DNA from: a virus
IMG/VR virus record: IMGVR_UViG_3300031963_000889
Span: 1 to 24,688 of that record
DNA: 24,688 nucleotides
Reading direction: 5' to 3' (one strand)
The first letter of the stretch is position 1. Each line of letters starts with the position of its first letter. Position numbers and translations under genes: made by a program. The notes below the pieces were generated by a model that worked only from the letters and a program-made list of their open reading frames with translations, did not search any database and was not told the origin of the DNA. Shown piece by piece: positions 339 to 24,113 of the stretch.

Positions 339-700
339 CAGCTTCCTCCGGTGTAGGTGACCACAGCCGTCGGGAAGAAGGTGGCGCCATCGCACTCTCG
401 AACGACTGGCCACGTCTCGGGCTCTTCGTCCAGGCAAACGCCCTGCTGCCCGAGCGAGTACCCGGCCGGAAGGTCGGACTCATCAGCATTGAACTGTGCC
501 GGCCACTCGTCCGGGCCGCAGCCGAACAGGCTGCCGGCGACATTGATGCTGGTCGGCGGTGCCGCCACGCCGGTGCAGTCGCCGCCGGGGCCTGGAGTCT
601 CGGCCGTCTCGCGACTGGCGCGCACTGCCGGCGGCAGCACGATGGTCTGCGCGAAGCCGGCCTGCGTGGCGATCGGAGACAGCCGGAACCGGCGTGTCAT
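338..700 (-). CDS. Distal tail-module protein, 120 aa, function unknown
   Basis: Start at the ATG that overlaps the upstream TGA as ATGA; upstream ATG-like starts would lie inside the preceding tail gene. The protein begins MTRRFRLSPIAT, has four cysteines spread through the chain (in GDCTG, FGCGP, GVCLD and RECDG) and is rich in Pro, Gly and Thr, with no signal peptide or membrane segment. The composition suits a small, possibly disulphide-bearing or metal-binding virion protein. It is the penultimate gene of the tail operon. I do not recognise a family; a role in tail-tip assembly is inferred from position only. Confidence 0.7.
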   Translation of the reverse strand: MTRRFRLSPIATQAGFAQTIVLPPAVRASRETAETPGPGGDCTGVAAPPTSINVAGSLFGCGPDEWPAQFNADESDLPAGYSLGQQGVCLDEEPETWPVVRECDGATFFPTAVVTYTGGS

Positions 701-1950
701 ACCGTCACCTCCGTGGCGAACTCGCGGCCGTCCTCGGTGCGCACCTGGATCACATGCACGCCCGGCGGCATCGCCGAGGCGGGGAAGCTCACGCGGCCGG
801 CGCCGTCGGTCAGGCGGGTGATGTTGTCGTTGAGTCGGCAAGAAGCACCGACGATCGGCCGGCCATCGGCCTCGCGCAGCGTGAGCACGCGCTCGGCGCC
901 TACTGTCTCGATGGCGATCGCTTCGTACTGCTGCACGTCGAGCGCGGCGGACTGGCTGACCAGCCGCACGGTCGGCACGTCGCCCACTGGCAGCTCGAAG
1001 CGGACGCGCGTGCTGCTGTCTTGCACGTCCAGCTCGCGGCCAAGCACCACCGCTGAAGCCTGCACGGGAAGCGTTGGGTGGTCGATCGCCACCACGTCGC
1101 CGATGCGCAGCACGCGATCGACAGTGCCGGTGCCCACCGACCACGCCGGCCGGGCTCGCTGGCGCAGGGCGCGCGTGGCGACAGCGATGGCCACGCGCGG
1201 CGACGTCAGCCAGGGCGCATCCTCGACGCGCTCGCGGCGGCCGTAGGCGGCCACGCTGTCGTGCGCTTCGATGCGCACCGACGCACGCGGCTGGCCGTCT
1301 TCGATGGAGAACCGCACGGTCAGGTCATTGGCCAGAGTGTCGAACTGCAGGCTGGCATCGAGATCGATCTCGCCGCCGATCCGCCAGCCGCCTGTCGGCG
1401 CATCCACTGGCCACAGGAATGCCCGGCCCTCGCTGAAGACTGCACCGATGCTGGCGCACAGGCCGCGCACCACGGCGCGCAGGGTCTCGGCGCGCTCCAG
1501 GCTGCCGCCTACCTCAAGTCCCGCGGATGCGCACGCGCCGCGGAAATCGGACAGGTCGATCGCCGGCCGGCGCGCGATGGTGGTCAGGATGTCCGCCAGC
1601 ACGTCGGCCGGGTTGGTCATCAGCCCGCCGGCGCCCAGCTTGCCGCGACCGCGCGCGATCAGGTCGGCACCCTCTTCGACCGGCTGGTCGAACTCGACGA
1701 ACGCCACAGCCTGGCCGGTGCTGTCCGTGCCGTTGCGGTGCTGCCAGTTGCCCACGGCCTGCCCGCCGATCAGCACCGCGTCAACGCCGGCGACCGGGTG
1801 ATCCGCCCAGACGAAGACGCGCCGGTCTGCGCTGTATTGCAGCAGCCGGCCGCCTGCCTCGCCGTAGCGGTGAGGGATCGGCGCAGGCTCGCGGAAGCCC
1901 GGCCACACGGCCGTGGTGCGCAGCGGCAGCGGGGCGGAAAGCGGCGTCAT
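697..1950 (-). CDS. Tail-tip/baseplate protein with C-terminal Ig-like domain, 417 aa
   Basis: Start ATG overlaps the stop of the 108-residue gene (ATGA). The N-terminal 300 or so residues are a mixed alpha/beta region (PAPIPHRYGEAGGRLLQY near the start, then FVWADHP) typical in length of hub or tip proteins. Roughly residues 355-417 (from LTLREADGRPIVGAS to the end) look like a carboxypeptidase-regulatory or Ig-like beta sandwich, with the GRPIVGA...TDGAGRVSFP pattern common in phage surface proteins. It follows the tape measure by three genes, where siphoviruses encode distal tail, hub and tip proteins. Which of these it is cannot be told from sequence. There are no enzyme motifs that I can see. 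The tail assignment is firm by context; the exact role is inference. Confidence 0.75.
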   Translation of the reverse strand: MTPLSAPLPLRTTAVWPGFREPAPIPHRYGEAGGRLLQYSADRRVFVWADHPVAGVDAVLIGGQAVGNWQHRNGTDSTGQAVAFVEFDQPVEEGADLIARGRGKLGAGGLMTNPADVLADILTTIARRPAIDLSDFRGACASAGLEVGGSLERAETLRAVVRGLCASIGAVFSEGRAFLWPVDAPTGGWRIGGEIDLDASLQFDTLANDLTVRFSIEDGQPRASVRIEAHDSVAAYGRRERVEDAPWLTSPRVAIAVATRALRQRARPAWSVGTGTVDRVLRIGDVVAIDHPTLPVQASAVVLGRELDVQDSSTRVRFELPVGDVPTVRLVSQSAALDVQQYEAIAIETVGAERVLTLREADGRPIVGASCRLNDNITRLTDGAGRVSFPASAMPPGVHVIQVRTEDGREFATEVTV

Positions 1951-2273
1951 GACTCCACCGAAATGCTGGCCGAGTCACGCCCGAGGCGGATCTCGGAGAC
2001 GATGCCGGAGAACACCTGCCCGGCGGGGGTCATCAGCCTGGCGCGCGAGCCAACAGGCGGCCGGCGTGCCAGCAGCGCCGAGGCTTCGCCACTGGTGTTG
2101 GCCAGCTCTAGGGTGATGTTCGGGTCTTCGCCGTCAACGTCCGCCCGCAGGGCGCCAACGCGCTGCAGGATGGCGTGCCGAGCCGCTTGCGGGTCCATGT
2201 ACTGAAGGGCTGCGGCGTCGCTGTAGAACTGGCGCACGGGGTTGCCTTCGATCACAAACCAGACCGGCGTCAT
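1947..2273 (-). CDS. Small tail protein, 108 aa
   Basis: ATGA overlaps at both ends tie it between the 1079- and 417-residue tail genes. The chain begins MTPVWFVIEGNPVRQFYSD and is followed by a helical DAAALQYMDPQAARHAIL stretch, then a beta-rich half (SRARLMTPAGQVFSGIVSEIRL). The latter resembles small OB-like or beta-barrel folds found in distal tail or hub components, but this is only an impression. There is no signal peptide and no cysteine. A structural or adaptor role in the tail tip is inferred from the tight coupling. Confidence 0.75.
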   Translation of the reverse strand: MTPVWFVIEGNPVRQFYSDAAALQYMDPQAARHAILQRVGALRADVDGEDPNITLELANTSGEASALLARRPPVGSRARLMTPAGQVFSGIVSEIRLGRDSASISVES

Positions 2274-5200
2274 GCCACGGCCTCGATGTCGACAGACACC
2301 GACAGGAGGCGGCCAGAGGGCGCAGGCTGGTGGCCGAAGATATCTTCGACTTCAAGCGGATCGTCAGGCAGCCGCACAATGCCGGCCTCGCTGTCGCTCA
2401 CAAGGATGCCCAGCATACGACGGTCGAAATCGCAGGCGTGACCGAAGCCGTCGACCAGATCGTCTACGCTTTGCTGCGTGAGCGCCTCGTGCCGCACGCT
2501 GCCAGACACCGAAGCGCGACGTCGACCAATGCCGGGAAGCTGATAGCGCCGCGTGAGGATGCCGCGCTCAGGCGTGCCGCCGCGGATCTCAGCGACAAGC
2601 GGCGAGCCAATCCACAACCAGCGGATCGAGCCGCCGCGATTGATGACCAGCCGATAGGCCGCGCGCGGCGTGGAAATCGGCACCCAGATGTGACGCGACG
2701 CCCATGCAACAGCCTCGGCGCTGGCGACGGTCGAGAAGCCGTCATCGCTGCCCTGCAGTTCGATCGTGGCATCGGGAGGGATTGTGTGATCGGCGATCAA
2801 CAGGCCCGTCACCGCACCAGCGGCAGGCGTCAAGGTGATTGCGGTGCTGCCTGTCCAACTCAGCGCATCGTCGGTCGGCTGCAGCGCGCGCGCCGGGCCG
2901 TTGATGGCCTCGGCGAGAAAGCTCCAGCGATCGAGCGCCACCCAGCTCGGCGCCACGCCCGGATTGAACACCGCAGACAGGCCCGCCGTCAGCGCGACCG
3001 TACCTGCGGCCTCGATCGGAGCAGACCACGCGCCACCGTTCAGGCGCCACTGCGCGCGCGCAGCCTCGACGCGGAAGGTGTAGCGGTCACCCAGCGCGAA
3101 CGGCACTTCGCCCAGCCCGATGGCGAAGCTCAGGCCGCCGTCGCTGTATCCCGCCGGCGCGGTCGTGCTCAGCGCGTAGTCGTCGAGCCGCCCGTCCACG
3201 CTGCCGATCACGCTCCAGGTCAGCGTGTCCGTACCGTCCTGCCCGCCGGAAAGGCCCACCGGCTCGGCGCGGTTGATCTGCAGCACGAACTCATCGCCCT
3301 GCTGGTAGGTCGCCCGCGGCACGCCGGCCAGGTCGATCGTGATCGAGAGCCGGTCGCCGTCGATGAGCTGCTCGCACGGGATATCGATGCCCACGCCGAA
3401 CTCCTGCGTGGACACCGGAACGCGCCGGCCGGTGTCATCCGTGCCCAGCCGTGCGCTGTGGTAGTAGTAGCCGGGCTGGATGGGCAGCAGGTCGTGCGAT
3501 GTGCACTCGAACCATGCCGCCCCGCCGCGATCGGTCCAGACGCGATTGCCGTCCAGCCCGGCCCCCTCAAAATCCGGGTCGACCCCGGCCGCTGCCAGCA
3601 CCTCATTCATCGCCGCCTGGTAGCGCTGGAAGTACAGCTCAGGCGGGTTGCGCTCTTCGCGCGTGGTGTCACCGTCGACGATGATTCGCGGCGACAGATC
3701 CTCGCCGTCCGACATGCCGAACAGGTTGTCCGCGTCGTCCTTGAAAGCCTCGAACGCCGAGTCCCACATCGCCCACACAGTCAGGCCGATGCAGGTCCAG
3801 GTGCCGTCACCATCGCTCACCGTGTTGCCGATCGTGGTCGGCCACGTCGGTTCCGTCGTGCCCGTGGTGCCGCCGCTGTAGGCGTAGCGGTAGCCGTTGC
3901 GGTCGGTGCTCTCGCGCACCACGTCCGCGCCGATCGCCGTTTCATCGGTCCAGACGGGATAGGTCACGCTGCCGCCGGCGATCTTGCGCAGGGCCGCACT
4001 CAGAATGCGCGAGCTTTCGCGGATGAACCGCAGATCGTTCTCGGCCAGCGCCGGCACATAGGGCGCCGGGCCGGGGCCGGGAGGCGTGCCAGTGTTGGCC
4101 TGCACGAACTGGTTGGCGTACTTGGCGAGGCGCTCCACGCGGATGATCCGCGATGCCTCAGACATGGTTGCAGCTCCTTCGGGCAGTGCGATGCCCAGCA
4201 GATCGGGGTCGGGGCCGCCCTCGATATCGGCGTTGGTGTCGCAGGGGCACGGCTCGGGCCGCGTCACCCAGGTGAACTCGTAGGTCGTTGCCTTGGCCAA
4301 GCGGCCCACCAGCGCGTCCTCGACGCAGAGGGTCGGGCGCTGCGCGTTGTTGCTGCGGTCGGCAGCCAGCTTGACGTCGATCGCCGACACGGTCGGGATG
4401 ATCGGGCTCGGCACCAGCGGGATCTGGAAGCCGTAGGCGCCGGCCGAATACAGGACGTTTGTGATTGCGTCCGACAGCCGGCCCGACACCTGCCCGCGCA
4501 CACTCCAGCGCTCGCGGCCAGATTCGCTGGCGTCCACGCATCGGATGGTCAGCGTTTCCGTGGGCGCAGTCGGCGCGACGGTCACGGGAAACTCGGCGTC
4601 GCGCGCGTACTCCGTGCCGTCGGCAGTGCGGCTGGCGGCGTAGCTCTGCGTGTAGACCGACAGGTCAGTGATGCCCTGCCCGCCCGGGCGGAAGTCGGCC
4701 ACGATGGCGCCTTCGACGCGCACCAGATCGCTGCCATCGCGGATGGCCGACAGCGCGCCGAACAGCGAGACGATGCCCGTGAAGCTCTCGGTGGCCACCT
4801 GGTCGGTGATGCGAATCGTGCGGCTGCCGGACACAGCCTGGATGGGCGTGCCCGCAGGCGCGCTGCGCACCGGCGCCGGCGTGAAGCTGTAGACCCAGCG
4901 GCCCGCCACATAGCGCTTGAACGGTCGGTATACCTGCGGATCGATGCCGAAGCGGATGCGCGGCGCGTTCTGCGGGATCGTGCCATCGGGGTTCAGGGCC
5001 ACCGCGCCGAAGTTCCACTGGTCGCCGAGGTATTCGTTGACGCCCTCGCGCAGTTCTTCTTGCAGCGCGTAGTCGGTGGCGGTGTCAACCAGTCCGCTGC
5101 TGTCCACGGTGACCGTGATCGCGTTGCCGTCGCTGCCTGCGGTCTTGGCGACCAGCAGCGCCGACTGAAACGGCGCCTGCGCGGCGCGCGTCTCGATGCC

Positions 5201-5509
5201 GAGGTTTTCCAGCGTCACCGTCACTGTCTGCGCGGCCACGCTATTGGCCGCCGTCAGCCCGCTGATCTGCCCGCTACCCACGCCCACAAACTGCGGCGCG
5301 CTGACCCGGCGCGTGCTGCCGCCGTCGCCCAGGATCTCGACGTCAATCGTCGCATCCGCGCTGCCCGTGTAGGCGCCAGCCAGCGACACGGCCCCGCCGC
5401 CAGCCTTGGGCGCGCTGTCGGTGCGCGTGATGGCGGTGCTGGGCACGATGTTGGTCGCAGCGATGGTGCCAGTGCGGGCCAGGTTGTCGCGGTTCATCAG
5501 GTAGCGCAT
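2270..5509 (-). CDS. Large tail structural protein, 1079 aa
   Basis: The start ATG shares its A with the tape-measure stop (TAATG). A second ATG four codons in (5497) is an alternative; neither has a strong Shine-Dalgarno. The protein is mostly Gly/Thr/Ser/Asp-rich beta structure. Residues about 30-135 form a repetitive beta region. About 545-575 carry the pattern TEPTWPTTIGNTVSDGDGTW, a small surface or carbohydrate-binding-like motif often seen in phage virion proteins. A CPC motif lies near 421-423. There is no hydrolase motif. Its size and its place directly after the tape measure suit a central tail-tip or tail-fibre-bearing protein that takes the place of lambda J in the gene order, but no J-like sequence is recognised. 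Confidence 0.8.
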   Translation of the reverse strand: MRYLMNRDNLARTGTIAATNIVPSTAITRTDSAPKAGGGAVSLAGAYTGSADATIDVEILGDGGSTRRVSAPQFVGVGSGQISGLTAANSVAAQTVTVTLENLGIETRAAQAPFQSALLVAKTAGSDGNAITVTVDSSGLVDTATDYALQEELREGVNEYLGDQWNFGAVALNPDGTIPQNAPRIRFGIDPQVYRPFKRYVAGRWVYSFTPAPVRSAPAGTPIQAVSGSRTIRITDQVATESFTGIVSLFGALSAIRDGSDLVRVEGAIVADFRPGGQGITDLSVYTQSYAASRTADGTEYARDAEFPVTVAPTAPTETLTIRCVDASESGRERWSVRGQVSGRLSDAITNVLYSAGAYGFQIPLVPSPIIPTVSAIDVKLAADRSNNAQRPTLCVEDALVGRLAKATTYEFTWVTRPEPCPCDTNADIEGGPDPDLLGIALPEGAATMSEASRIIRVERLAKYANQFVQANTGTPPGPGPAPYVPALAENDLRFIRESSRILSAALRKIAGGSVTYPVWTDETAIGADVVRESTDRNGYRYAYSGGTTGTTEPTWPTTIGNTVSDGDGTWTCIGLTVWAMWDSAFEAFKDDADNLFGMSDGEDLSPRIIVDGDTTREERNPPELYFQRYQAAMNEVLAAAGVDPDFEGAGLDGNRVWTDRGGAAWFECTSHDLLPIQPGYYYHSARLGTDDTGRRVPVSTQEFGVGIDIPCEQLIDGDRLSITIDLAGVPRATYQQGDEFVLQINRAEPVGLSGGQDGTDTLTWSVIGSVDGRLDDYALSTTAPAGYSDGGLSFAIGLGEVPFALGDRYTFRVEAARAQWRLNGGAWSAPIEAAGTVALTAGLSAVFNPGVAPSWVALDRWSFLAEAINGPARALQPTDDALSWTGSTAITLTPAAGAVTGLLIADHTIPPDATIELQGSDDGFSTVASAEAVAWASRHIWVPISTPRAAYRLVINRGGSIRWLWIGSPLVAEIRGGTPERGILTRRYQLPGIGRRRASVSGSVRHEALTQQSVDDLVDGFGHACDFDRRMLGILVSDSEAGIVRLPDDPLEVEDIFGHQPAPSGRLLSVSVDIEAVA

Positions 5510-8500: not shown

Positions 8501-9891
8501 ACCGAGGCCGCCAGCGGCGCCACGCCGCCGATGCTCTGCGACAGCTCTTCGATGGTGGTGTTGCCGGCCGCCGCGGCGACGAAGAAGGCGTCGCTCACGC
8601 GCGTGGCTTCTTCGGCCGCGAGGCCGTAGGCGTTCAGCGTGGCGACCAGCCCGCTGGCCGCGACTTCGGTATCCGCCAGGCCGCCGATGGCGAGCTGGTT
8701 GGCGACGCGCAGGATCTCCAGCGCCTGCGTGGTGTCCTCGACGCCGGCAGCGATGATCTCGTACAGCGCCGCAGCGTTGCGGGCAGCGTCGCCACCGAAC
8801 TCGCGGGTCAGGCCGCGGACGCTCTCGCTCAGCGCAGCCAAGTCAGCTTGCGGAGCAATGGTGCTGATTGCTGCAATCGATCGTGCGAACTGGCTGGCAG
8901 CGCTTGCAGCCGTGCTCAGCGTGCGGGTGACGGTGAACAGGCTGGCGCCCGCAGCGATCAAGCTGCCCTGCACTTGCTGCAAAGACGCGCCGAGGCTGCC
9001 GTACTCGCTGCGCAGCTCGCGCGTGCGCTCGATCAGGCGGGACTGCGCCTGCGCCAGCTCTCGAGCGGACAGCGTGCCGCTTGCGCGAAGCGTGTCATAG
9101 GCAGCCCGAACGCGCTGAATCTCGGCGGTGATGTCGCCAAAGCCACGGCGCCCCAAAGCCTCGTTCGCGTCGGCAAGCTGCTGCGCGCTGGTCGCGGCGG
9201 CACGGTTGCTGCTGACCTGCTGGGAAACGCTGTTCGCCAGAGCATCGAGCGCCGCGCGTGACTGCTGGGCTCGCGCCTGCAGCTCGGCTTGCGCGCTGGT
9301 GTAGCTCTTGCTCGCGACGCCGGCCTTCTCAAGCTCGCCGCGAATCTGCTGGATGGGCTCGCGCAGGCGGTCTTGCTGGGCGGCGAGCTTGGAAATCGTG
9401 CCGCGCGACTTCTCAAGCTCGGCGTCATAGCGGCGCTGGGCCGTCTCCGCCTCGCGAAGCTCGGCCGTAAGTCGCTGAATCTCGACTCGGGCTTCAGCGC
9501 TCGCGCGCTGGCGCTGTTCTTCGCTGATCTCACCGCGCTGGGCTGCTGCTGCCAGTCGCCGCAGCCCCTCTTCCTGGTCAGCAATGGCCGCGCGCGTGGC
9601 GCCCTGCGTTGCAGCAGCCTGCTTGCTGGCAGCATCCAGCGCAAGCGTCGCGGCCTGCGTCTCGCGGATGCTCTGCTGCAGGCCGATGTATTGCTGGCCA
9701 AGCTCACGCAGGCGAGCGAGAGACTGCTGCAGTGCGCCGGTGTCGGCCAATGCATCGGTGAGCTGCGACAGTTCGGATGCTGACTGCTGGCCCTGCTCGC
9801 CCAAGCCGTCGATCTGCGCGCGCAGGTCGCGCAGGTTGCTGATGCCCTCGACTTCAAATTGCAGCCGCAGGGTTTCGTCGCGCGTAGCCAT
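5509..9891 (-). CDS. Tail tape measure protein, 1460 aa
   Basis: This protein sets tail length and is ejected ahead of the DNA in siphoviruses. Residues 1-310 are Gln/Ala/Arg-rich coiled coil. Residues about 330-600 match the TP901-type tape-measure core (LSESVRGLTREFGG, YEIIAAGVEDTTQALEIL, GVAPLAASVGVSVEQL). Hydrophobic, Ala/Gly-rich stretches at about 641-675 and 680-730 could insert in membrane. Coiled coil returns near 1280-1400, and a short C-terminal domain ends at the stop. It is longer than lambda gpH (853 aa). Start ATG overlaps the gpZ-like stop as TGATG. No lysozyme or peptidase domain is visible inside it. The family call rests on length, composition, core motifs and position after tail tube and chaperone. 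Confidence 0.95.
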   Translation of the reverse strand: MATRDETLRLQFEVEGISNLRDLRAQIDGLGEQGQQSASELSQLTDALADTGALQQSLARLRELGQQYIGLQQSIRETQAATLALDAASKQAAATQGATRAAIADQEEGLRRLAAAAQRGEISEEQRQRASAEARVEIQRLTAELREAETAQRRYDAELEKSRGTISKLAAQQDRLREPIQQIRGELEKAGVASKSYTSAQAELQARAQQSRAALDALANSVSQQVSSNRAAATSAQQLADANEALGRRGFGDITAEIQRVRAAYDTLRASGTLSARELAQAQSRLIERTRELRSEYGSLGASLQQVQGSLIAAGASLFTVTRTLSTAASAASQFARSIAAISTIAPQADLAALSESVRGLTREFGGDAARNAAALYEIIAAGVEDTTQALEILRVANQLAIGGLADTEVAASGLVATLNAYGLAAEEATRVSDAFFVAAAAGNTTIEELSQSIGGVAPLAASVGVSVEQLTSAVGALTAGGLDTGQAFTQIQSALTAVVKPTAEARKAAEALGIQFDVAALRSQGLQQFLQGVSDAAQGNETTLATLFGRVEGLQGVLALTGNQADAFAKALSDMENGAGRTAEALAKLQDTPEARLRLFRAAVGDLEMSFGQAVTALTPLLDGLTSAVNLFNELPSGVRAGIAGVTALTAVVAPLAIAIVQSRAALVLLLGSLRAIGPAAAAAGGGVGVFTTAANAATAAAGRLNLSLSTLGRAFAALGVAAAGFEVGQAIGEKFNEISQSATAAGQSVSALADEIQQAGQAGAAQAAQFSNFADVQVRSAEAAAQLGDAQREAYRAALEGLEQYLLGRGRELIAIKQRGEATAQELAELDATKQRLIDVRASFDALDQAGLGAAKSIAAVVSAAESPAVAKLAEDLRKAAGDSKKLGEELSGAFDGIDFDNSASRLGEIALAIDRAASSSTAAGTAIREGLAKELADLSGEELLRFQQAAQFAFDAAGEGAGAASQILDATIAESYRRLGVDAEAAGVKITKQGQEIIANFRAISSSANASAQGISAAFRAALNKAETTGEVQELEAALRAAFAAGKLSAEQLGAALSAAGARAADITNGALEAQGALGQLGEAGRQAARELIASLQSARAGLEAEAGNLALAIQRGLQNGEPVAALQQQLSGLQAEIAGTTSRINGLQQGLGAVGDAGEDAGRRGANGIGTLTPVLKDAALQAKETAAAVGDIGQQGQQAGEEVKSSVSNALLGLIQFTKDARDSLAEFGEEAVAQFDRLRGELGVVNTTGRSTADVLQLIADRAGFAAKNAEELKRQIGDTEASVKRTREEMARLAQQTAEATNELSDLNRQLQDEADRRAGNEEAIRRREYEEQLRRIAELERQGGQAAITQANQARELARRNFEADIAEIRAREREQIDSNRRVDEDRNRRSGGGSTGGALAPARDAGQPAESLGTIAPVFNITGGNPEETARVVLRELEKLQRRGANPRTAF

Positions 9892-10445
9892 CAGCGGGTG
9901 AGCCTCTCGATTTCGGTTGCGAGCACGGTCCGCGCCTTGTCCACCAGCTCATCGCCGATGTCCTGCTGGGCAAGCTGCTGCGCGATGGATGGGCCGTAGA
10001 CGCCCTTAAGGGGATAGCGACCGACGCGCGGGCCGTCGCTGTATTCGCTGCCGCTGACGCGCTTGCGCTCAAGCCCGACGCGGTTTCCGTTCGCGCCGGT
10101 GCGAATGAATGCTCCGGCGCGGACTTCTCGCTTCCCGCCCTTCCGCACCTGGACCTCGGCGCCGTCTCGGCGCGGGTTCCAGCGCGCGCCGTAGCTCACG
10201 ATGTTGACGCCCTTCCCGCTGGCGACCAGCTCCACCGCGTCATCGGTCACGCGCGAGCGAAGGCCGTCGAGGATGCGGAACGCTGGCAGGTTGAACTCGG
10301 CCTGCAGACTGCGGCGGGCTTCGGGCTTGATGCGCCGGCCAACGGTCGACTTGGCGCGCTGCACCGCGACTTCGCCGCGTTCGCCCAATTCGCGCGCGCG
10401 CTCGACCAGCCGCTGCAGTCCGCGGCTGTCGAGAACGGTCGGCAT
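9891..10445 (-). CDS. Z: Minor tail protein Z (GPZ) family, 184 aa
   Basis: The C-terminal part (RYPLKGVYGPSIAQQLAQQ, then a closing helix) is the signature of the lambda gpZ / prophage minor tail protein Z family, which acts in tail completion so that finished tails can join heads. The N-terminus is helical and basic. The start ATG lies two bases after the chaperone stop. In lambda, Z lies between head-completion and U genes; here it sits between the chaperone and the tape measure. That is a different but workable order. The protein is close to lambda gpZ in size (192 aa). Confidence 0.85.
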   Translation of the reverse strand: MPTVLDSRGLQRLVERARELGERGEVAVQRAKSTVGRRIKPEARRSLQAEFNLPAFRILDGLRSRVTDDAVELVASGKGVNIVSYGARWNPRRDGAEVQVRKGGKREVRAGAFIRTGANGNRVGLERKRVSGSEYSDGPRVGRYPLKGVYGPSIAQQLAQQDIGDELVDKARTVLATEIERLTR

Positions 10446-10864: not shown

Positions 10865-11659
10865 TTAGGCGGCGCGACGGCCGTCGATGATGATCTGCGG
10901 GGTGCCGCTGTCACGCTCGTTGATGCCCACGGCCAGGGTGAAGCTGGCCAGCTCATCTTCGGTGATCAGCGGCAGCTCGCCCGACGGGCTCAGGCTGGCG
11001 GACGCAATGTAAAGGTCACGGTTCGGGCCGGCAGCGTTGTCGGAGATGAAGCGAATGGCGCCGGTCTGCGAGCCACTGCCGCCCGAAGATACGCGGGTGA
11101 TGGTGCCAGCGGTCGGGGTGTAGTCCACATGCACCGTGGTGCCGTTCGCGATGGCTCCGCCGGGGATGATGTAGATGCGGGCCTTGGCAGCGTCGAGACG
11201 GTAGTCGGTATTCAGGACGTAGGTGGTCGAGCCCGCGACGTTGGTCACGACGACACTGGTCACGTCCTGCACGCCGAGCGGATTGTTGCTGGTGGCGCCG
11301 AGCTGGTATTCGCGGTCCTGCCGCACGACGATCGCTTCATTCGTCACCGGCGTGGCCGTCTGCGTGACGGTCGAGACAGTGCCGCCCAGGAAGAGGGCCA
11401 GGTTCTGGGCGCTCACGTCGTCACAGGTGATCTCGGCGTTGAAGTTGACCGACAGCGTGACGGTCAGATCCTTCTTGCGCAGGCCGCCAGTGGAGCTGAA
11501 ATGCTCGAACTGCTCCGATTCGATGTTGAGCGAGAAGCCAGGGCAGTTGCCCAGAAAGCGCTCGCCGGTCTTGGCGCCGTTGCTGTCGAAGAGATCGACG
11601 AACAGCTCGCCGCGACCGAAGACGTAGGTATTGCTGAAGTTGGTGCCGGCGATGGGCAT
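10865..11659 (-). CDS. Major tail tube protein, 264 aa
   Basis: Start ATG at 11659 (MPIAGTNFSNTYVFGRGELF) follows AGAGGA at a good distance; an upstream in-frame start would read through the preceding hairpin. The chain is beta-rich, beginning with a FGRGELFVDLFD strand pair and a SSTGGLRKKDLTVTLSV segment. This matches the tail-tube fold, whose loops and strands stack into hexamer rings. It is close in size to lambda gpV (246 aa). The last part (LPLITEDELASFTLAVGINERD) fits a tube C-terminus. It is followed by a chaperone and a tape measure, as tail tube genes are. Strong hairpins lie on both sides, as if its message were expressed separately at a high level. Confidence 0.85.
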   Translation of the reverse strand: MPIAGTNFSNTYVFGRGELFVDLFDSNGAKTGERFLGNCPGFSLNIESEQFEHFSSTGGLRKKDLTVTLSVNFNAEITCDDVSAQNLALFLGGTVSTVTQTATPVTNEAIVVRQDREYQLGATSNNPLGVQDVTSVVVTNVAGSTTYVLNTDYRLDAAKARIYIIPGGAIANGTTVHVDYTPTAGTITRVSSGGSGSQTGAIRFISDNAAGPNRDLYIASASLSPSGELPLITEDELASFTLAVGINERDSGTPQIIIDGRRAA

Positions 11660-11680
11660 GGTGCGGTCCTCTGAAATGCG

Positions 11681-11705
11681 AAAGGCCCGCACTTGGCGGG
11701 CCTTT
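11681..11705 (-). terminator. Perfect 10-bp hairpin before the tail tube gene
   Basis: AAAGGCCCGC and GCGGGCCTTT pair perfectly across a five-base loop (acttg). It ends in TTT on both strands, so it could act in either direction. It lies between the 64-aa gene and the tail tube Shine-Dalgarno. As a terminator it would cut expression of all tail genes, so partial termination or 5'-end stabilisation of the tube message is more likely. Confidence 0.6.
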
Positions 11706-11728: not shown

Positions 11729-11923
11729 TCAGCGCCGCTTGCGCGGCCTCGGGCTCGGATCAGGGGTTGCGTCCTGGTCCGTCGGCGGGTCTGCGATCTG
11801 GCCGGCGCCGAGGTCGCGCAGGCGAATCGCCTGTCCCTCCGGCAGATCGATGATGTCGCCGGGCGCGTAGCTCACGCCGGCGTTGATCCAGTGCTGCGAG
11901 AACTCAAAAGCGACTGCTGACAT
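11729..11923 (-). CDS. Small accessory protein of the tail module, 64 aa
   Basis: The start is the ATG at 11923 (MSAVAFEFSQHWINAG), which has AGGAG about 9 bases upstream. The gene overlaps the end of the tail terminator gene by 20 bases. The protein has an HWINAGVSYAPGDIIDLPEGQA pattern ending in a basic PSPRPRKRR tail. It resembles the small phage proteins with a PGD..LPE..A..L..GAG pattern found near tail or head genes (DUF7210-like by eye). Its molecular role is unknown; a structural or assembly role is inferred from its neighbours. Confidence 0.7.
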   Translation of the reverse strand: MSAVAFEFSQHWINAGVSYAPGDIIDLPEGQAIRLRDLGAGQIADPPTDQDATPDPSPRPRKRR

Positions 11924-12401
11924 GCGCAGGCTCCTGTCCGTAGGGATTGCCAATGCCCTCCACATAGGTGATTCGGATCGAGAGGCGCACGATCTCGGCC
12001 TGCCCGCCATCGAGGCGCGCAGTGCTGACGGTCGACTCCATCGCCATCGTGCCAATTCGCCCGGCCTCATCAGACAGCGCGGCATGCGGCTCGCTGAAAA
12101 TGGCGCGCTTGATGTCGGCCTTGATCAGCTCCATTGCGGTGCCGGTCGTCTCTTCGTCCGCGGGGACATAGCCCTCGACGTCAACGCGCAGATCGGTCGC
12201 GGTCTTGTTGCTGTTGGCGTCGGCGCGGAAGTCCTCGGCCTGCGACCAGACCACGATTGCAGGAAGCTCGACCTGATCAAGCGAACGGCGTGCCCGATAC
12301 ACGCTGCGGCCGGCGTCGGTCTGGAAGTCATCAGCAGACCGGATGCGGCGAAGGCGGCACGCGATCTCACGCAGCGCGCGTTCGGAAATTGGCAGGCTCA
12401 T
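11904..12401 (-). CDS. Tail terminator-like protein (gpU-type position), 165 aa
   Basis: Start ATG (MSLPISERALREIACRLRRI) overlaps the upstream TGA as ATGA and follows a GGGTGG stretch; a GTG three codons earlier is the alternative. The N-terminal helix and the RARRSLDQVELPAIVVWSQAED segment, then YVPADEETTGTAMELIKADIKRAIF, are typical of small tail-terminator or completion proteins that cap the tail tube and bind the head connector. It is longer than lambda gpU (131 aa). It is the first clearly tail-type gene after the accessory fibre block. The terminator identity is a family-style match, not a proven one. Confidence 0.65.
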   Translation of the reverse strand: MSLPISERALREIACRLRRIRSADDFQTDAGRSVYRARRSLDQVELPAIVVWSQAEDFRADANSNKTATDLRVDVEGYVPADEETTGTAMELIKADIKRAIFSEPHAALSDEAGRIGTMAMESTVSTARLDGGQAEIVRLSIRITYVEGIGNPYGQEPAHVSSRF

Positions 12402-12745
12402 CCGATCCACCCGAACGAATAGCCCGCGGTGATCACGTCGCCGGTGTCGGGCGGCGCTTCCTCGGTAACGGTTACCGAAGTGCCAAGCACTACGATGGAC
12501 CAGCCTCGAACGGTCCCAAGCTCAGAAGCCCAATAGGTGCCGTCATTTAGGCCTCCGACGGTCCAGTTGCCGGCGTTGTCAGCGCGGACAGTTGCCACCT
12601 GCGAACGACGCAGCGAAATGAGTATTTCGCTGCCAGCGGTAGCGCCAGACCCAGAGACAACAGCAACCGCCCGGCTCCCGAAAGAAAACATCACGGGGCG
12701 CGATCGGTCTGGAACAATTACGCCAATATCTCCGAGCGCGCTCAT
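12398..12745 (-). CDS. Beta-rich accessory virion protein, 115 aa, unknown
   Basis: ATGA overlaps on both sides. The sequence is beta-rich (VMFSFGSRAVAVVSGSG, then QVATVRADNAGNWTVGGLNDGTYW). The DNAGNWTVGGL stretch is the sort of turn-rich pattern found in carboxypeptidase-regulatory or Ig-like phage surface domains. There is no signal peptide or membrane segment. It lies in the lower-GC block, immediately after the 329-aa protein, and the two may have been acquired together. Function not recognised. Confidence 0.65.
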   Translation of the reverse strand: MSALGDIGVIVPDRSRPVMFSFGSRAVAVVSGSGATAGSEILISLRRSQVATVRADNAGNWTVGGLNDGTYWASELGTVRGWSIVVLGTSVTVTEEAPPDTGDVITAGYSFGWIG

Positions 12746-13731
12746 GCGAGCGGGTCCTGCCAGGTGTCGGTGGTTTCAACTACAAGCTTTCCTGCCGAGT
12801 TGGCGCCTGCCCCAAGGATTGAGAAGTTTGCACTCGGGTCATACCCCGCCGCATTGAATGTGTCTGCATAAGCGATTGTTGTGCCGCCCGCGTTGACGTT
12901 GTGCAATGGCACCCACAAGTTCGGGAAAAATCCGGCCGGCTGCTGATTTGATAGAGATGCACCAGACGCTCCGTTAACCCACAATTGCGGCGGACTGATG
13001 AAGAACTCGCCATCATCATTTGGCGCTTTCGGTCCAACACTTCCTGCAAATCCCGAGGCCGTTGTCCCACTGGTTCCTTCGGTCACAAACGCCGCGCGCG
13101 GAGACTTTGACACCCCATCCACAGTTCGCATGGCGAATAGCCTAGGGGAGCCCACGCCTGCATAAGACGAAAAGAACATTTGCGCAGCTAGGCTTTCACT
13201 TGCCGCGTTTGACGAAGCGCGAGTGTTTACGACGTAAGGCCATGAATTGGCCGAACGTATTGGCGAGAACTTGCCGAAAAGGTATGTGTCCGCAGAGGTT
13301 GTTCCAAACCTGACGGACAGAATGAACCAGTTTTCATTGGCAGTAAGCTGCCAAGCTCGCGCAGTTGTGTCGAGCGTGTCAGAGCATCGCCACACACACA
13401 CGCTGTCAGCCATTTCCGCGACAGTAGGAAACGGGTCGACCAAAGTATCTACGCCGGTCGCGCCTTCTGCGGCACGCACAATTGCTTCGCGGAATCCGCC
13501 GGTGCCTGTGCCGTCATTGACAACGCGCAGAAAACCAACGCCGTCGACAGTGCAAAAAACCGCTTTATTGGTCCCGGTGAACAGCAGTGTCCATCCCTTC
13601 TTGGGCAGCGAGCCGTAAGCCGTGCCGGTTCCGGTCAGGCAAATTGTCAACAGATTTACTAGGCCGTTGCCGGTGGTCCCACGAAGAACCGGCGCGCCTG
13701 CGTCGGTGCTGCGGTAAGTCGTCACGCTCAT
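12742..13731 (-). CDS. Virion-associated protein with DAGAPVL N-terminus, 329 aa
   Basis: The true start is the ATG at 13731, overlapping the fibre stop as ATGA. The N-terminus (SVTTYRSTDAGAPVLRG, then LPKKGWTLLFTGTNKAVF) is a recurrent phage pattern: a D.GAPVL element followed by a GW...F.GTNKAVF element, often encoded near fibre and connector genes. The rest is rich in Ser, Phe, Trp and Asn, and ends GKLVVETTDTWQDPLA. No catalytic motif is evident. The DNA here is about 55-57% GC in two counted lines against about 70% in the tape measure, which suggests recent exchange. A virion surface or accessory role is inferred. Confidence 0.7.
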   Translation of the reverse strand: MSVTTYRSTDAGAPVLRGTTGNGLVNLLTICLTGTGTAYGSLPKKGWTLLFTGTNKAVFCTVDGVGFLRVVNDGTGTGGFREAIVRAAEGATGVDTLVDPFPTVAEMADSVCVWRCSDTLDTTARAWQLTANENWFILSVRFGTTSADTYLFGKFSPIRSANSWPYVVNTRASSNAASESLAAQMFFSSYAGVGSPRLFAMRTVDGVSKSPRAAFVTEGTSGTTASGFAGSVGPKAPNDDGEFFISPPQLWVNGASGASLSNQQPAGFFPNLWVPLHNVNAGGTTIAYADTFNAAGYDPSANFSILGAGANSAGKLVVETTDTWQDPLA

Positions 13732-15527
13732 GCTTCGGTCGCCTCGATGATCAGGGTGATTCCGGTCACGGTGCCGGTGACGCTCGTCACCTCCATTTCG
13801 ATCAGGTCGCCGTCGTCGATCGCAGTCCACGCAGAGGCTGAAGCAGTGCCTCGGGCGCCTGAAGAAATCGACGGCGGCGAGCCCGCCGTGATCGCGGTGA
13901 AGGTGCCGCTGGAAAAAGGTCGCTTGCGTACTTCGACCGTGATGCTTCCGGTGCTGCCGGCCTTGGGCAGCAGGGTCCAGGCCACCGGAGTCAGGCCGGT
14001 CACGGCGCGCAGCTCGACGCGGCGGCCAGTGGTGAGCGGCTGGTCGATGCCGTTCACGGTGCCGGCGTCCCAGCCGACGGTGATCGGGCGCACAGCAGAG
14101 CCGCCGGTAGCGGTTGCGCTGATCACGTTGTCGACGATGGTGATGCCAGTTCCAGCCGTAAGCGCGTTCTGCTTGCTGCTTGGCGCCAAGGCGTGCCAGC
14201 CCTGCAGGTTGGCGCTCAAGGTCAGCGCGGCGGCGGTGAAGCTCAGTCCGGTGCCGAGCGAAATCTGAGTCGCGGCGCTGCCGCCTGAAATCTGGCCCAG
14301 CAGGCGATCATCGGACAGCACGATCTTGCTGGCGGACAGCGCGGGGATGTCGCCCTGCACCAGCTCGCGGAAAGTCGGGGCGCCGTCAGAGCCTGCCGGG
14401 CTCGCCCAGACGCGCGAGGCTGTCTGCGATGCCAGGGTGGCAGTGATGGTGCCTGCGCCCGTCACCGGCGAGTTGGAAACGGAGAAGATGCTCGGCAGCG
14501 ACAGGCCCACGCTTGTGACCGTGCCGTTGCCCGTGCCTGCACCAATCGCTGCGCGGGCGCCCTCAGCAGTGGTAGCGCCGGTGCCGCCGTTGGCGATGCC
14601 GAGCGTGCCGCCCAGCGTGAGCGTTCCCGCGATGGTGATCGGGCCGCCACTGAAGGTCAGGCCCGTGGTGCCGCCCGAAGCCTGCACGCTGGTGACGGTG
14701 CCGGAGCCGCCGCCACCTCCGCCGCTTGCACTGATCGTGACCGTGCGCGAGGCGCCGCTGCCCGAGTAAGTCAGCGTGACGTTTGCGCCGGCGATGAGCA
14801 TCGCCTCGACTTGACCGCGCGCGATCGTGTCGGTGTAGACCGTGGCACCCGGCGCAATGCCGTCGAGCTTGGCCTTGTCCTCCACCGACATGACGCCGGC
14901 AGCGGCCTGCGTAGCGATCGGGAGCGTTGCGGCGGTGCCCGTACTGCTTGTGACGGTGCGCGCGTTGCCGGTGCCGCCGATGCCGAGGTTGGTCGCGACG
15001 TTGACCTGCGCGCCGGCTTGGATTCCGTCGAGCTTGTTCTTGTCGTTCACTGACATGAAGCCGGCGCTGCCGCCGACGCCGCCAGTGGCGACGCTATGCA
15101 GCGTGCCGCCAGGCTGCGATCCGTGCGCATGCGTGTGATCCTCGCGGGCAGCGCGAGCGCTGGCACCGGCCTGCGAGGACGCAGCCACGGCAGGCGGCGC
15201 GCTGCTCTGCAGGATCAGGTCCAGCTTCGCCTTGTCGGCGGCGGACATGCTGCCGGGCGCTGATGGCGTGGCCGGGGTGATCCCGATCACCGGATCGACG
15301 CCGCCAGTGCTGGTGATTGGCGCAGTCGCGGTGACGGTGTTCACCAGCGAGGGCGCGTCGCCAGGATTTAGCCATTCGGTGTCGTAGTCGGCGCCGGATC
15401 GCTTGCCCAGGATCTGTCCCTGCGCGCCGCCAGGGATTACGCCTTGGCCGCGCTCGCCCCGCAGACCGCGGGCGACGACGCGAGTCGCAAACTCTTGCGC
15501 CTGCACGATGATGCGTGGAGTGCTCAC
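13728..15527 (-). CDS. Fibre protein with MSxxDKxKLD and NGGTGATT repeats, 599 aa
   Basis: Start is GTG at 15527, overlapping the upstream stop as GTGA, with GGAGG ten bases before it. A short Gly-rich N-terminal stretch (RGLRGERGQGVIPGGAQGQ, then DYDTEW near 48-52) is a typical fibre attachment region. Three MSxxDKxKLDxI repeats lie at about 94-105, 158-169 and 213-224. A DHTHAH motif is at 130-135. A poly-Gly linker is at 269-274, and GTVTSV, NGGTGATT and GAGTIT segments lie at 276-364, the classic trimeric tail-fibre pattern. A C-terminal domain (about 480-599) could be the receptor-binding or decoration tip. Unusually it is encoded between head and tail genes, so it may be a head or neck fibre. 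Confidence 0.85.
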   Translation of the reverse strand: MSTPRIIVQAQEFATRVVARGLRGERGQGVIPGGAQGQILGKRSGADYDTEWLNPGDAPSLVNTVTATAPITSTGGVDPVIGITPATPSAPGSMSAADKAKLDLILQSSAPPAVAASSQAGASARAAREDHTHAHGSQPGGTLHSVATGGVGGSAGFMSVNDKNKLDGIQAGAQVNVATNLGIGGTGNARTVTSSTGTAATLPIATQAAAGVMSVEDKAKLDGIAPGATVYTDTIARGQVEAMLIAGANVTLTYSGSGASRTVTISASGGGGGGSGTVTSVQASGGTTGLTFSGGPITIAGTLTLGGTLGIANGGTGATTAEGARAAIGAGTGNGTVTSVGLSLPSIFSVSNSPVTGAGTITATLASQTASRVWASPAGSDGAPTFRELVQGDIPALSASKIVLSDDRLLGQISGGSAATQISLGTGLSFTAAALTLSANLQGWHALAPSSKQNALTAGTGITIVDNVISATATGGSAVRPITVGWDAGTVNGIDQPLTTGRRVELRAVTGLTPVAWTLLPKAGSTGSITVEVRKRPFSSGTFTAITAGSPPSISSGARGTASASAWTAIDDGDLIEMEVTSVTGTVTGITLIIEATEA

Positions 15528-15925
15528 GGGCTGCTGACCTCCAGAGCACGGACGGTGACGGTCGCATCGGCGATCGTGCGGCTGGTGCCGGCGATGTCGA
15601 GCGGGTCGAACACGCGGACGGCCAGGTTCACATCCCAGCGCGGCGTGCCGGCAGGCGGCGCAAGCGCCAAGGTCTGAGTGGCTGTGGCCAGCAGGGCGAT
15701 GGTGTTCGCGCCTTCACTGCCGGCAGTGGTGAGTCCAGCGCCTTCGGTCAGCGTCAGCAGAACAGCGTTGGTCGCTCGGTTGCGGAACTCGGCGCGGGCT
15801 TGCAATCCAGTCAGCGGGACCGGCGTGCCTTCGTCCGGCGACTGCCCCTGCTCAGGCGGCATGCGGCAATCAAGCACCAGCGGCAGCGCATCGCCTGCGC
15901 GCGCAAAGATCGGATCGCAGCTCAT
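15524..15925 (-). CDS. Fibre-associated beta-rich protein, 133 aa, unknown
   Basis: ATGA at the start and GTGA at the end tie it between the head-completion protein and the fibre. It begins MSCDPIFARAGDALPLVLDCR, then has LTGLQARAEFRNRATNAVLLTLTEG and a C-terminal WDVNLAVRVFDPLDIAG...ATVTVRALE strand series. This resembles the small Ig-like baseplate or fibre adaptor domains (BppU N-terminus type) that begin with a L.G...R...R pattern, but the match is by eye. The direct coupling to the fibre gene makes a fibre-adaptor role the best guess. Confidence 0.65.
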   Translation of the reverse strand: MSCDPIFARAGDALPLVLDCRMPPEQGQSPDEGTPVPLTGLQARAEFRNRATNAVLLTLTEGAGLTTAGSEGANTIALLATATQTLALAPPAGTPRWDVNLAVRVFDPLDIAGTSRTIADATVTVRALEVSSP

Positions 15926-16323: not shown

Positions 16324-17358
16324 TCAGGTGCGGCGAGCGACCATCAGCGACTTCGGGCGGGTGCAGTACGACAGCGGGTTCGCCTGCACTTCGAGGTTCG
16401 CGGACTTGCCGTTCGGCGACATCCACATGCGCGAGTAGCGCGGCAGGCCCACGGTGTTGACCGTTTCCATGTAGTCGGCCGGCGCGTAGACCGTGCGGAA
16501 CAGACCCGGCACGCCGACGGGGAACAGGTGGCACTTGTTCGTGTCCACCATCGCCGTCGCGCCGTTCTTGCCGCGGTAGTTCTCGAACACGATGCCGCCG
16601 AACTCGAACGCGCCATAGATGCGGTTGCCGTTCGGGTAGACGTAGCCGTCGCGCAGCACGGTCGCCATGTCGGTGTTGCGGTAGCTGGCGACCACCTCGG
16701 GGTGCGAGAGCAGGTCGTCGAAGAACGCATCGCCGCAGAACGCATGGATGCCGGTCAGCGGCACGCCGCCGAGGTTGTCCATGATCTTGCGCACCACCTC
16801 GGCGCACTTCTTGCGCAGGGCGCCGCTGGCCGGGGTTGCGTTGTCCAGGTCGAAATCGACCTCCGTTTCCTGCGTCACGCCGAACTCGGTGAACAGGTTG
16901 TAGAGGGTCGAGCCGTCGGCGTTGAGGATGATGCCCTTGACCGCGCCCAGGCGCTGCAGCTCCAGGGTCGGATCGAGCACCAGCTGAATCGCCTCGGTCT
17001 GCCGCTGAGTCACCAGCGACATCACGCTCTGGACTTCCGTCTCGGAGCCGAAGGCGCGCACGCCCTGCACCTCGTCGGCGTTGATATGGTCGTCGTGCTG
17101 GTAGTGCGGGACGATGAGCGAGCGGGCCGTGCGCTTGTCCTTGGCCTTCGTCTCGCCCGGGCCGCCGCGCCCCGTGGGGTTCAGCAGCTTGAGCGTGCCA
17201 TCGACGGACTCGATCATCACGCTGGTGGTCGTAATGCCGCGCTCGTTCCAGTTCAGCACCTGACCGCAGCGGCCGGGCACGAACGGAATGTTGTTGACCG
17301 AATCGGTCAGGGAGATGACGCCAAAGGCGTCCTGGTTGAAAACGTCGAGAGTGGGCAT
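16324..17358 (-). CDS. E: Major capsid protein, lambda gpE type, 344 aa
   Basis: This is the HK97-fold shell subunit. It begins MPTLDVFNQDAFGVISLTDSV and has the gpE-family features RSLIVPHYQHDDHI near 80-92, a VQGVRAFG stretch, a central FDLDNATPASGALR, and a C-terminal half with AFCGDAFFDDLLSHP (about residues 205-219) and FENYRG. Length is nearly the same as lambda gpE (341 aa). ATG is preceded by AAGGAG. The gene directly follows the gpD-like protein and the S49 protease, as in lambda. A strong hairpin follows the gene. Confidence 0.95.
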   Translation of the reverse strand: MPTLDVFNQDAFGVISLTDSVNNIPFVPGRCGQVLNWNERGITTTSVMIESVDGTLKLLNPTGRGGPGETKAKDKRTARSLIVPHYQHDDHINADEVQGVRAFGSETEVQSVMSLVTQRQTEAIQLVLDPTLELQRLGAVKGIILNADGSTLYNLFTEFGVTQETEVDFDLDNATPASGALRKKCAEVVRKIMDNLGGVPLTGIHAFCGDAFFDDLLSHPEVVASYRNTDMATVLRDGYVYPNGNRIYGAFEFGGIVFENYRGKNGATAMVDTNKCHLFPVGVPGLFRTVYAPADYMETVNTVGLPRYSRMWMSPNGKSANLEVQANPLSYCTRPKSLMVARRT

Positions 17359-17382
17359 TGGATGCTCCTTGCCGTGGCCGGC

Positions 17383-18009
17383 TTAGCGGATGACGATGCC
17401 GGCGCGGGCCAGCTGCTGGGTTGCGATTGCCTTGTTGGCCGCGCTGATGCCGGCGGGCCAGATCAGCTCGTTGCCGTTGACGGCGGTGCCGCGCGCGGTG
17501 ATCACGCAGCGGGTGTCGGCGTCAGTCGCGTTGACCGGGCCGTAGAGGATGCCGGCGGCCACCTGCGTGCCATCGGTCGCGGCCGGGTCCAGGGCCTCGT
17601 AGTCGCCGCCGGTCACGGTGACGTGAATCACGTCGCCAATGTCCCAGTCGTTCGCGCCGTCAGCCACCGTGAGCGAGATAGCCGAGGTGCCGTAAGCCAC
17701 GGCGACGGTAAGGTTGGGCATGTTCGAGCCATCAGGCGCGATCACGCGAAAGGTGCCCGCGTTGCCGGACTCGGCGATGCAGATCAGCTGATAGATGCCG
17801 ACCTGCGCATCCGGGCCGACGGTGACCGCACCGACGGTGCCGTCACCAGTGCCGGAGATCTTGGCGCCCGCGGCAGTGATCAGGCGGCCCAGAACAGTGC
17901 CGGCCTGAAGGTTCTGGCCAGAGTTGAGTCGACCGTTTTCTCGGCTCCAGTTGGCATCCAGCTCGCGCAGGATGTAGCCGCCGGCGTGGGTGGTTTCAGT
18001 AAGTGCCAT
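17383..18009 (-). CDS. D: Head decoration protein, extended gpD type, 208 aa
   Basis: Residues 1-50 (HAGGYILRELDANWSRENGRL, LQAGTVLGRLI) and 138-208 (DYEALDPAATDGTQVAAGILYGPV, then LIWPAGISAANKAIA) match the lambda gpD decoration protein, which trimerises on the expanded head and stabilises it. Lambda gpD is 110 residues, so about 90 extra residues (about 50-137) are inserted between the two halves. They are beta-rich with a TVGAVTVGPDAQVGIYQLI start, like known extended decoration proteins. GAGGA precedes the ATG. It lies 24 bases ahead of the capsid gene. Confidence 0.9.
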   Translation of the reverse strand: MALTETTHAGGYILRELDANWSRENGRLNSGQNLQAGTVLGRLITAAGAKISGTGDGTVGAVTVGPDAQVGIYQLICIAESGNAGTFRVIAPDGSNMPNLTVAVAYGTSAISLTVADGANDWDIGDVIHVTVTGGDYEALDPAATDGTQVAAGILYGPVNATDADTRCVITARGTAVNGNELIWPAGISAANKAIATQQLARAGIVIR

Positions 18010-18036
18010 GATGCTTTCCTCTTGGTGGTGCCGCGT

Positions 18037-18531
18037 TTACTGACCACTCGACGCGGCGGCGGCGCGACGGCGGTATACGTCCGTGGATCGCGGCTGCTTC
18101 GCCGCGCTCGGGGTGCTGCTGTTCGGAATGTGCGTGGTGATTTCAGGCCCGGCGTCGGCCCGCAGGTCCAGCAGTTGCGCGCGAGCCGCCTCCACCGGCG
18201 TGCCGTTCGCCACCATGTCGGCGGCCAGACTCTCCACGCCGGCCGCAGCGCACAGGTCGCGCACCTTGATCGCGTAGGCCACGGCGGCATCGGCGGCCAT
18301 GCCCTCGGGCGGCTTGCTGATCAGGGCCAGGCCAAGAGCTGGCGGCAGCTTCGATGCGGCGACGGCGGCGATCAGCGAGGGCAGGGGGTCGGGCTGCGCA
18401 GCTAGCTCGGCCTGCACCTTTTCGGGGATTGCCTGCAGCTCGGCTTGCAGTTCGGCAAGCGCTTGGTCGATAGCAGCACGGCCATCCGCGGTTTCGACGG
18501 CCAAGGTCAGGACATCCGCAGCCGGCCGCAT
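18037..18531 (-). CDS. Possible separate scaffold protein from an internal start, 164 aa
   Basis: In lambda the scaffold Nu3 starts inside C in the same frame. Here Met311 of the protease (ATG at 18531) begins the Ala/Glu-rich C-terminal region, and GGAAGAAGAG lies 8-15 bases upstream as a weak ribosome site. The 164-residue product would lack the protease domain and hold the helical scaffold region. The internal start is inferred from family precedent, a suitable ATG and a purine stretch, not shown. Confidence 0.35.
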   Translation of the reverse strand: MRPAADVLTLAVETADGRAAIDQALAELQAELQAIPEKVQAELAAQPDPLPSLIAAVAASKLPPALGLALISKPPEGMAADAAVAYAIKVRDLCAAAGVESLAADMVANGTPVEAARAQLLDLRADAGPEITTHIPNSSTPSAAKQPRSTDVYRRRAAAASSGQ

Positions 18532-20951: not shown

Positions 20952-21160
20952 AGGCCGTTGCCTCGCTGATACAGGCGGAACACGCGGCTGCGCTTGGGCT
21001 TGCCGGCGCTGTTCAGTTCGTTCTGGATCACGTCAAGTGCAAGCAGCATCTCGCTCGTGTCCTGATAGGTCACGAGGCGCCCGTCTGCATAGCGCACGGT
21101 CTTCTCTCCCCCGGCGATTGCTGACTTGATCAGCGCCAGGTCGTCAGTCGTGAATGCCAT
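20948..21160 (-). CDS. W: Head-tail joining protein gpW, 70 aa
   Basis: The small protein (MAFTTDDLALIKSAIAGGEK then VRYADGRLVTYQDTSEMLLALDVIQNEL) has the gpW fold pattern: a helix, a beta hairpin of VRYADGRLVTYQ, and a second helix, ending in a basic tail. Lambda gpW has 68 residues. gpW enters the connector after DNA packaging and is needed for tail joining. Its start lies 2 bases beyond the terminase stop. Confidence 0.92.
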   Translation of the reverse strand: MAFTTDDLALIKSAIAGGEKTVRYADGRLVTYQDTSEMLLALDVIQNELNSAGKPKRSRVFRLYQRGNGL

Positions 21161-23933: not shown

Positions 23934-24113
23934 TCACGCATTACGCTTGCGATTCCAGGGGTAGAAGCTCGACGCGGCCGGCGGCATCACGGCTTCAAGC
24001 CGCTTGCGGTCTTGCTCACGCTTGCGCCTCTCGCGCTCTCCTGCCCACATGGCGAGCAAGCGGCCGAGCGTTCCGCCAAGCAGCAGGTAGTAGACGATCA
24101 GGTCGGCGCTCAC
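23934..24113 (-). CDS. Small one-helix membrane protein, 59 aa
   Basis: Start is GTG overlapping the lipoprotein stop as GTGA, with GGGAG about 9 bases upstream. A hydrophobic stretch (ADLIVYYLLLGGTLGRLLAM) near residues 3-22 is followed by a strongly basic helix (GERERRKREQDRKRLEA) and a short Pro-rich end. This is an N-terminal transmembrane helix with a charged, likely cytoplasmic or DNA-near tail. It sits between spanin genes and terminase, so a lysis-related role (small holin-type or spanin helper) is possible, but I do not recognise a family. Confidence 0.65.
   Translation of the reverse strand: MSADLIVYYLLLGGTLGRLLAMWAGERERRKREQDRKRLEAVMPPAASSFYPWNRKRNA

Follow-up and report, generated by a model that had tools for sequence, protein, structure and literature searches.

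Four genes located between an FII-like head completion gene and a U-like tail terminator gene of a lambda-type siphophage would together specify a single fibre complex for host binding, of the T5 LtfC/LtfA type. The genes are found on an IMG/VR contig of 24,688 bases, the whole of which is termed the window here. Leaving the attachment site aside, there is high confidence that they represent an LtfC/LtfA-type module of adaptor and fibre with exchangeable tips. For the whole statement, in which this complex is bound at the neck of the virion, the probability is put at roughly 0.5. This assessment draws on the gene order and the gene overlaps, the family and the fold match of the adaptor, the anchor sequence of the fibre, the co-occurrence of the tip genes and the pattern of linkage among related phages.

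In the proposed model, the 133-aa beta-sandwich adaptor would assemble in several copies into a collar that encircles the particle axis. The first ~25 residues of the fibre trimer would hold it in place by extending the adaptor sheets at their edges with two beta-strands, and the shaft would reach out to a C-terminal domain docking the 329-aa protein. The latter would carry the receptor-binding surface, with the 115-aa Ig-like protein as a presumed accessory of the tip. The most likely place of the collar would be the neck, on FII, U or the first tube ring: adaptor and fibre N-terminus are co-inherited with FII, U, V and Z, whereas neither the capsid nor the tail-tip protein shows such linkage.

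Gene order and the structural module

All four open reading frames (133, 599, 329 and 115 aa) were confirmed on the minus strand (Table 1). Together with their neighbours they constitute one unit of six genes, in the order FII, 133-aa adaptor, 599-aa fibre, 329-aa protein, 115-aa protein and U, with a 4-nt overlap at each of the five junctions if the start of U is set at the ATG at 12401, as in the Cylindrospermopsis phage Cr-LKS3. The genome of Cr-LKS3 was deposited with the same six genes in the same order, and between the window and Cr-LKS3 dN/dS values of 0.03-0.15 were obtained for FII, the adaptor, the fibre, the 115-aa protein and U. This clearly indicates that the four reading frames are real. 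A second phage, Cy-LDV1, was deposited with the order FII-adaptor-fibre-U and does not contain the 329- and 115-aa genes; in both deposits the adaptor-fibre gene order is already present. Adaptor and fibre are kept between FII and U in 11 distinct phages.

Table 1. Positions of the fibre cassette and of neighbouring structural genes in the window.
Feature	Position	Strand	Basis
FII-like head-tail attachment (head completion) protein, 110 aa	15922..16254	-	Pfam PF05354 Phage_attach E 3e-7; 99% identical in Cr-LKS3
Fibre adaptor, 133 aa, LtfC/p132 family	15524..15925	-	phrog_1084 E 1.9e-9
Fibre, 599 aa, GTG start	13728..15527	-	PHROG tail-fibre matches; 93% identical in Cr-LKS3
Fibre residues 1-25, two-strand N-terminal anchor (VSTPRIIVQAQEFATRVVARGLRGE)	15453..15527	-	Likeness to other fibre starts
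Fibre residues 479-599 plus stop, tip type X	13728..14093	-	Co-occurrence with 329- and 115-aa genes
329-aa DAGAPVL protein	12742..13731	-	phrog_9600 E 3.4e-29
115-aa Ig/prealbumin-like protein	12398..12745	-	SpaA prealbumin-like fold E 0.0025, under Pfam cut-off
U-like tail terminator	11904..12401	-	phrog_5078 tail terminator E 7.5e-6; also phrog_4204; ATG start as annotated in Cr-LKS3
Major tail (tube) protein V with Ig domain	10865..11692	-	phrog_807 E 2e-59
Z-like tail completion protein	9891..10445	-	phrog_27 E 2e-15
1079-aa tail-tip protein (g1079)	2270..5509	-	Position after tape measure
Tail-tip genes L (108 aa) and J (417 aa)	697..2273	-	Annotated L and J in Cr-LKS3; J weak phrog_1101 tail-protein match

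The surrounding genes constitute a lambda-type siphophage structural module, which was defined by a GpA terminase, a lambda portal, the S49 protease C, D, E and FII; Pfam matches above the cut-off were obtained for A, B, C, D, E and FII. A sequence-only reading of this DNA had placed the four genes between an FII-like and a U-like gene, and this was confirmed, for FII by Pfam Phage_attach (31.4 bits vs a curated Pfam cut-off of 26) and for U by phrog_5078 and phrog_4204. The same reading had compared the locus with lambda, in which FII, Z and U are adjacent. Here, the fibre genes indeed split FII from U, but the comparison is incomplete, as this adjacency is interrupted twice in the window: the second break arises because the Z-like gene comes after the major tail protein.

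Further features of the window were observed. The decoration protein gpD (17383-18009) has 208 aa vs 116 positions of the Pfam model, which indicates an insertion of about 90 aa; gpD of Cr-LKS3 has 128 aa. Upstream of the terminase, a small ORF (24110-24523) displays a lipobox-like start (LLLGLTACQ) and is possibly an outer spanin. Searches of the window for tRNA genes and Rfam families gave no match. The G+C content amounts to 66-68% in the window, Cr-LKS3 and Cy-LDV1. That of Cylindrospermopsis, the reported host, is roughly 40%, and since the phage values are far above this, the host assignment to Cylindrospermopsis deserves a check.

Adaptor, fibre and exchangeable tip

The 133-aa protein, previously called adaptor-like from its sequence, is a fibre adaptor of the LtfC family. 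It matches phrog_1084, a profile listed as 'unknown function' which also contains LtfC of phage DT57C (E 1.4e-32). In a comparison with hhalign, the adaptor family matched DT57C LtfC with P 1.7e-4, vs P 0.45 for TP901-1 BppU and P 0.34 for the unrelated 115-aa protein. For a profile of the TP901-1 neck fibre protein NPS, P 0.01 was obtained against the adaptor family, and the N-terminus of NPS displays a weak match to phrog_1084 (E 0.004); BppU has no sequence match.

The fold is in line with this assignment. A single predicted model (pLDDT 64, pTM 0.56) displays one beta-sandwich like T5 p132. In one Foldseek search of this pLDDT-64 model against 350,542 PDB chains, the top two entries were 8hqz_Q (DT57C LtfC, E 2.4e-5) and 7qg9_J (T5 p132 in the tail tip, E 1.2e-4), with TM scores of about 0.6, and TP901-1 BppU (4v96_AA) followed at rank 8. 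Among PDB entries, chain M of 26dk from Pseudomonas phage KPP25 also matches the adaptor family (E 5e-15). Concerning the virion position of this chain, two other KPP25 proteins were searched and matched no 26dk chain, and no paper on the entry was found. A genome-collection search with the adaptor gave no match.

Directly 3' of the adaptor gene, the fibre gene encodes a product that starts with a two-strand anchor. The N-terminus reads VSTPRIIVQAQEFATRVVARG in the window fibre and MALKTKIIVQQIL...KYTVVLGN in DT57C LtfA. A comparable V/I-rich strand pair opens nearly all fibres encoded 3' of phrog_1084 adaptors, and a PGP or collagen-like sequence often comes after it. Between the window and Cr-LKS3, residues 1-60 of the fibre have a dN/dS of 0.023. 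For DT57C, it has been shown that the two N-terminal strands of LtfA pair with the sheets of LtfC; a dodecameric LtfC ring holding the fibre by strand addition is known only for this phage (PMC10713586). By analogy, the fibre strands may pair with the adaptor in the window phage as well.

The type X fibre end (last 121 aa) is present in all five phages with the 329- and 115-aa genes and in none of the six without them. In these six, the fibre has a different end (type Y) and neither gene is present; in this group the two genes always occur together. Each of the two ends is found with both adaptor types. Compared with Cr-LKS3, the 329-aa protein shows just 67% identity, and only 60% over the last two thirds. 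In addition, dS of its gene is saturated vs 0.1-0.6 in the neighbouring genes. Low identity and saturated dS fit an exchanged receptor-binding tip. The type X end may be the docking part for the 329-aa protein, and the latter a distal tip or receptor-binding partner. Sequence searches against the PDB gave no match for the 329-aa protein and only insignificant, pilin-like matches for the 115-aa protein.

The adaptor family itself is widespread, with phrog_1084 relatives at no fewer than 591 places in viral contigs, and adaptor-fibre pairs adjoin portal, terminase, capsid, FII or baseplate genes, depending on the phage. In many contigs (L020, L021, L028-L032, L073-L087), portal, adaptor and fibre follow in direct succession, and L020 contains a protease-capsid fusion gene downstream of this row. 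In Synechococcus phage S-CBS1 (L149, 7610-10093), the capsid genes are separated from the tail genes by a fibre gene and a major tropism determinant; a phrog_1084-type adaptor was searched for at this head-tail boundary and not found. With these data phrog_1084, so far of 'unknown function', gains a role as an LtfC-type fibre socket.

Linkage and attachment site

Eleven relatives were compared gene by gene. Two adaptor types are present, and FII, U, V and Z, as well as the fibre N-terminus where it was compared, sort identically without a single exception; no phage separates the adaptor from FII, U, V or Z. Among these phages, which are related to one another, the pairwise identity of the adaptor correlates with that of Z (0.96), U (0.93), V (0.90) and FII (0.76), whereas the correlation is about 0 for portal, protease, D and E and low for the tail-tip genes (g1079 0.24, L 0.42, J 0.32). 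Terminase A, located 5 kb off across swapped head genes, also correlates with the adaptor (0.88). For head type, fibre tip and g1079 type alike, all four pairings with the adaptor type are observed, and in two relatives (L010, L017) adaptor and tail-tip types are mismatched. The position of the cassette beside the neck genes is kept although every flanking block has been swapped. Docking of the adaptor collar at the neck, on FII, U or the first tube ring, is given an even chance on this basis.

This linkage has to be read with care. The genes from FII to Z are also neighbours on the DNA and may be linked for this reason alone, so neck attachment is compatible with the linkage to FII, U and Z rather than demonstrated by it. 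Further limits are the equally good correlation of the distant terminase A, the relatedness of the phages and the fact that FII itself combines with unrelated portals. The sequence-only reading had considered fibres at the head, neck or connector. Of these, neck and connector agree with an adaptor that is linked to FII, U, V and Z but not to the tail tip, whereas the head shell is disfavoured by the comparison of adaptor and capsid genes.

For such capsid head fibres, the adaptor would sit on the shell, the decoration protein or the portal, and the fibres would radiate from the head. The cassette lies directly downstream of the capsid gene block. Among 53 sampled contigs, whose choice was biased by the seeds, at least 25 have a related adaptor immediately after a portal or terminase gene, and in Streptomyces phage Faust one follows the capsid gene. 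Nevertheless, the window and Cr-LKS3 share adaptor and fibre at 96 and 93% identity, as against only 16-26% for E, D and portal (capsid proteins 16%), and the adaptor is not co-inherited with the head genes. With almost the same adaptor and fibre present on unrelated capsids, it is very unlikely that the adaptor docks specifically on the capsid, the decoration protein or the portal. Within the window, the head block from W to E (16324-21160) is 83-98% identical to Cy-LDV1, while the terminase and the genes from FII to J follow Cr-LKS3, with a mosaic breakpoint between E and FII.

A tail-tip location is a serious alternative, with a chance judged to be somewhat under even. Here, an LtfC-type collar would encircle a ring at the tail tip, as it does in T5, and only the gene location, between FII and U, would have changed. 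Candidate docking partners would then be the 1079-aa protein and the tail-tip proteins L and J. In T5/DT57C, LtfC encircles the middle protein of the tail tip (PMC10713586), and the solved relatives T5/DT57C LtfC and TP901-1 BppU both sit at the tail tip. Furthermore, phrog_1084 adaptors adjoin baseplate or tip genes in HTVC008M, phiHAP-1 and AP1. Homologues of the DAGAPVL protein follow tail-tip genes in DLP4, Suso and 13 contigs with V homologues, so that this family is no marker of a neck position. The cassette fibres must probably reach the host as well, since the complete genomes of Cr-LKS3 and Cy-LDV1 contain no other annotated fibre gene. On the other hand, the free recombination of g1079 with respect to the adaptor type does not favour docking on the 1079-aa protein, and the unbroken association of the adaptor with FII, U, V and Z and the constant place of the cassette speak against a tail-tip location. 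However, identities of 77-92% among the tail-tip proteins of all members leave room for interchangeable interfaces. In Cy-LDV1 (L002, 17877-21434), the counterpart of the 1079-aa protein aligns in two segments that overlap, pointing to a stretch of about 100 residues duplicated within the protein.

Decoration of the tail along its length through the major tail protein V would fit the correlation of the adaptor with V, but V already has an Ig-like decoration domain (phrog_807), and LtfC-type adaptors of known site form a single collar, which makes this arrangement highly improbable.

A recent insertion of the fibre cassette is unsupported within the group, as the adaptor and fibre N-terminus track the FII-to-Z backbone and exchange is limited to the tip. 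FII lies directly beside U, with no cassette, in one Rhodanobacteraceae MAG contig (L037; V 56% identical). Deeper in the tree, the cassette could have been either gained or lost.

Wherever located, the cassette fibres are probably the host-binding device, as the two complete relatives have no other annotated fibre gene. Returning to the neck collar, it can tentatively be proposed that the host-recognition fibres of a lambda-like siphophage lineage, the only ones it has, sit at the head-tail junction on a collar of the T5-LtfC type and that first host contact is thus made by the neck instead of the tail tip, with the same adaptor family located at the baseplate in other phages. If true, the adaptor family would be a site-independent fibre socket. 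With the neck site, neck-borne fibres would extend to lambda-like phages of Gram-negative or cyanobacterial hosts. Cr-LKS3 is an isolated phage and allows direct testing.

Comparison with known systems

Among the closest systems are the two deposited cyanophages, in which the cassette products are annotated only as putative tail fibre proteins. Cr-LKS3 resembles the window in the FII-adaptor-fibre-U order and the additional 329- and 115-aa genes and differs in its unrelated capsid block. Cy-LDV1 shares the order; in contrast, its fibre has 803 aa with another tip, and the 329- and 115-aa genes are lacking.

Neck fibres of a cyanophage are known from the Anabaena myophage A-1(L), where gp80-82 likewise possess a small trimeric N-terminal anchor domain (PMC10966104). 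In contrast to the window, gp82N displays a pilus-like fold on a pentadecameric neck protein, and the neck fibre genes are located far from the other structural genes (PMC10966104). No sequence relation between gp80-82 and the window cassette was found in this comparison.

The neck collar of TP901-1 is formed by NPS, whose N-terminal domain is of the BppU type (PMC10747895, PMC6669499). NPS of TP901-1 and the 936 group would be similar to the proposed complex in its BppU-type beta-sandwich collar, the neck fibres and the exchangeable carbohydrate-binding tips (PMC6669499, PMC10747895). However, TP901-1 NPS is one fused protein, and its sequence relation to the adaptor is weak. Its gene is located after the baseplate genes. 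Gene order as proof of the attachment site was rejected, since it would misplace the neck fibre genes of both TP901-1 NPS and A-1(L).

In DT57C, LtfC forms a collar holding the lateral tail fibres of T5-type phages (PMC10713586). The LtfC-LtfA pair of T5/DT57C (p132, gp109-gp108) shares the adaptor PHROG and the fold match with the window; ltfC of DT57C also lies directly 5' of ltfA, and LtfA has a two-strand N-terminal anchor. The T5/DT57C genes adjoin tail-tip genes and their product docks there, whereas the window cassette is located between FII and U and, unlike the T5/DT57C pair, has a separate tip of 329- and 115-aa proteins.
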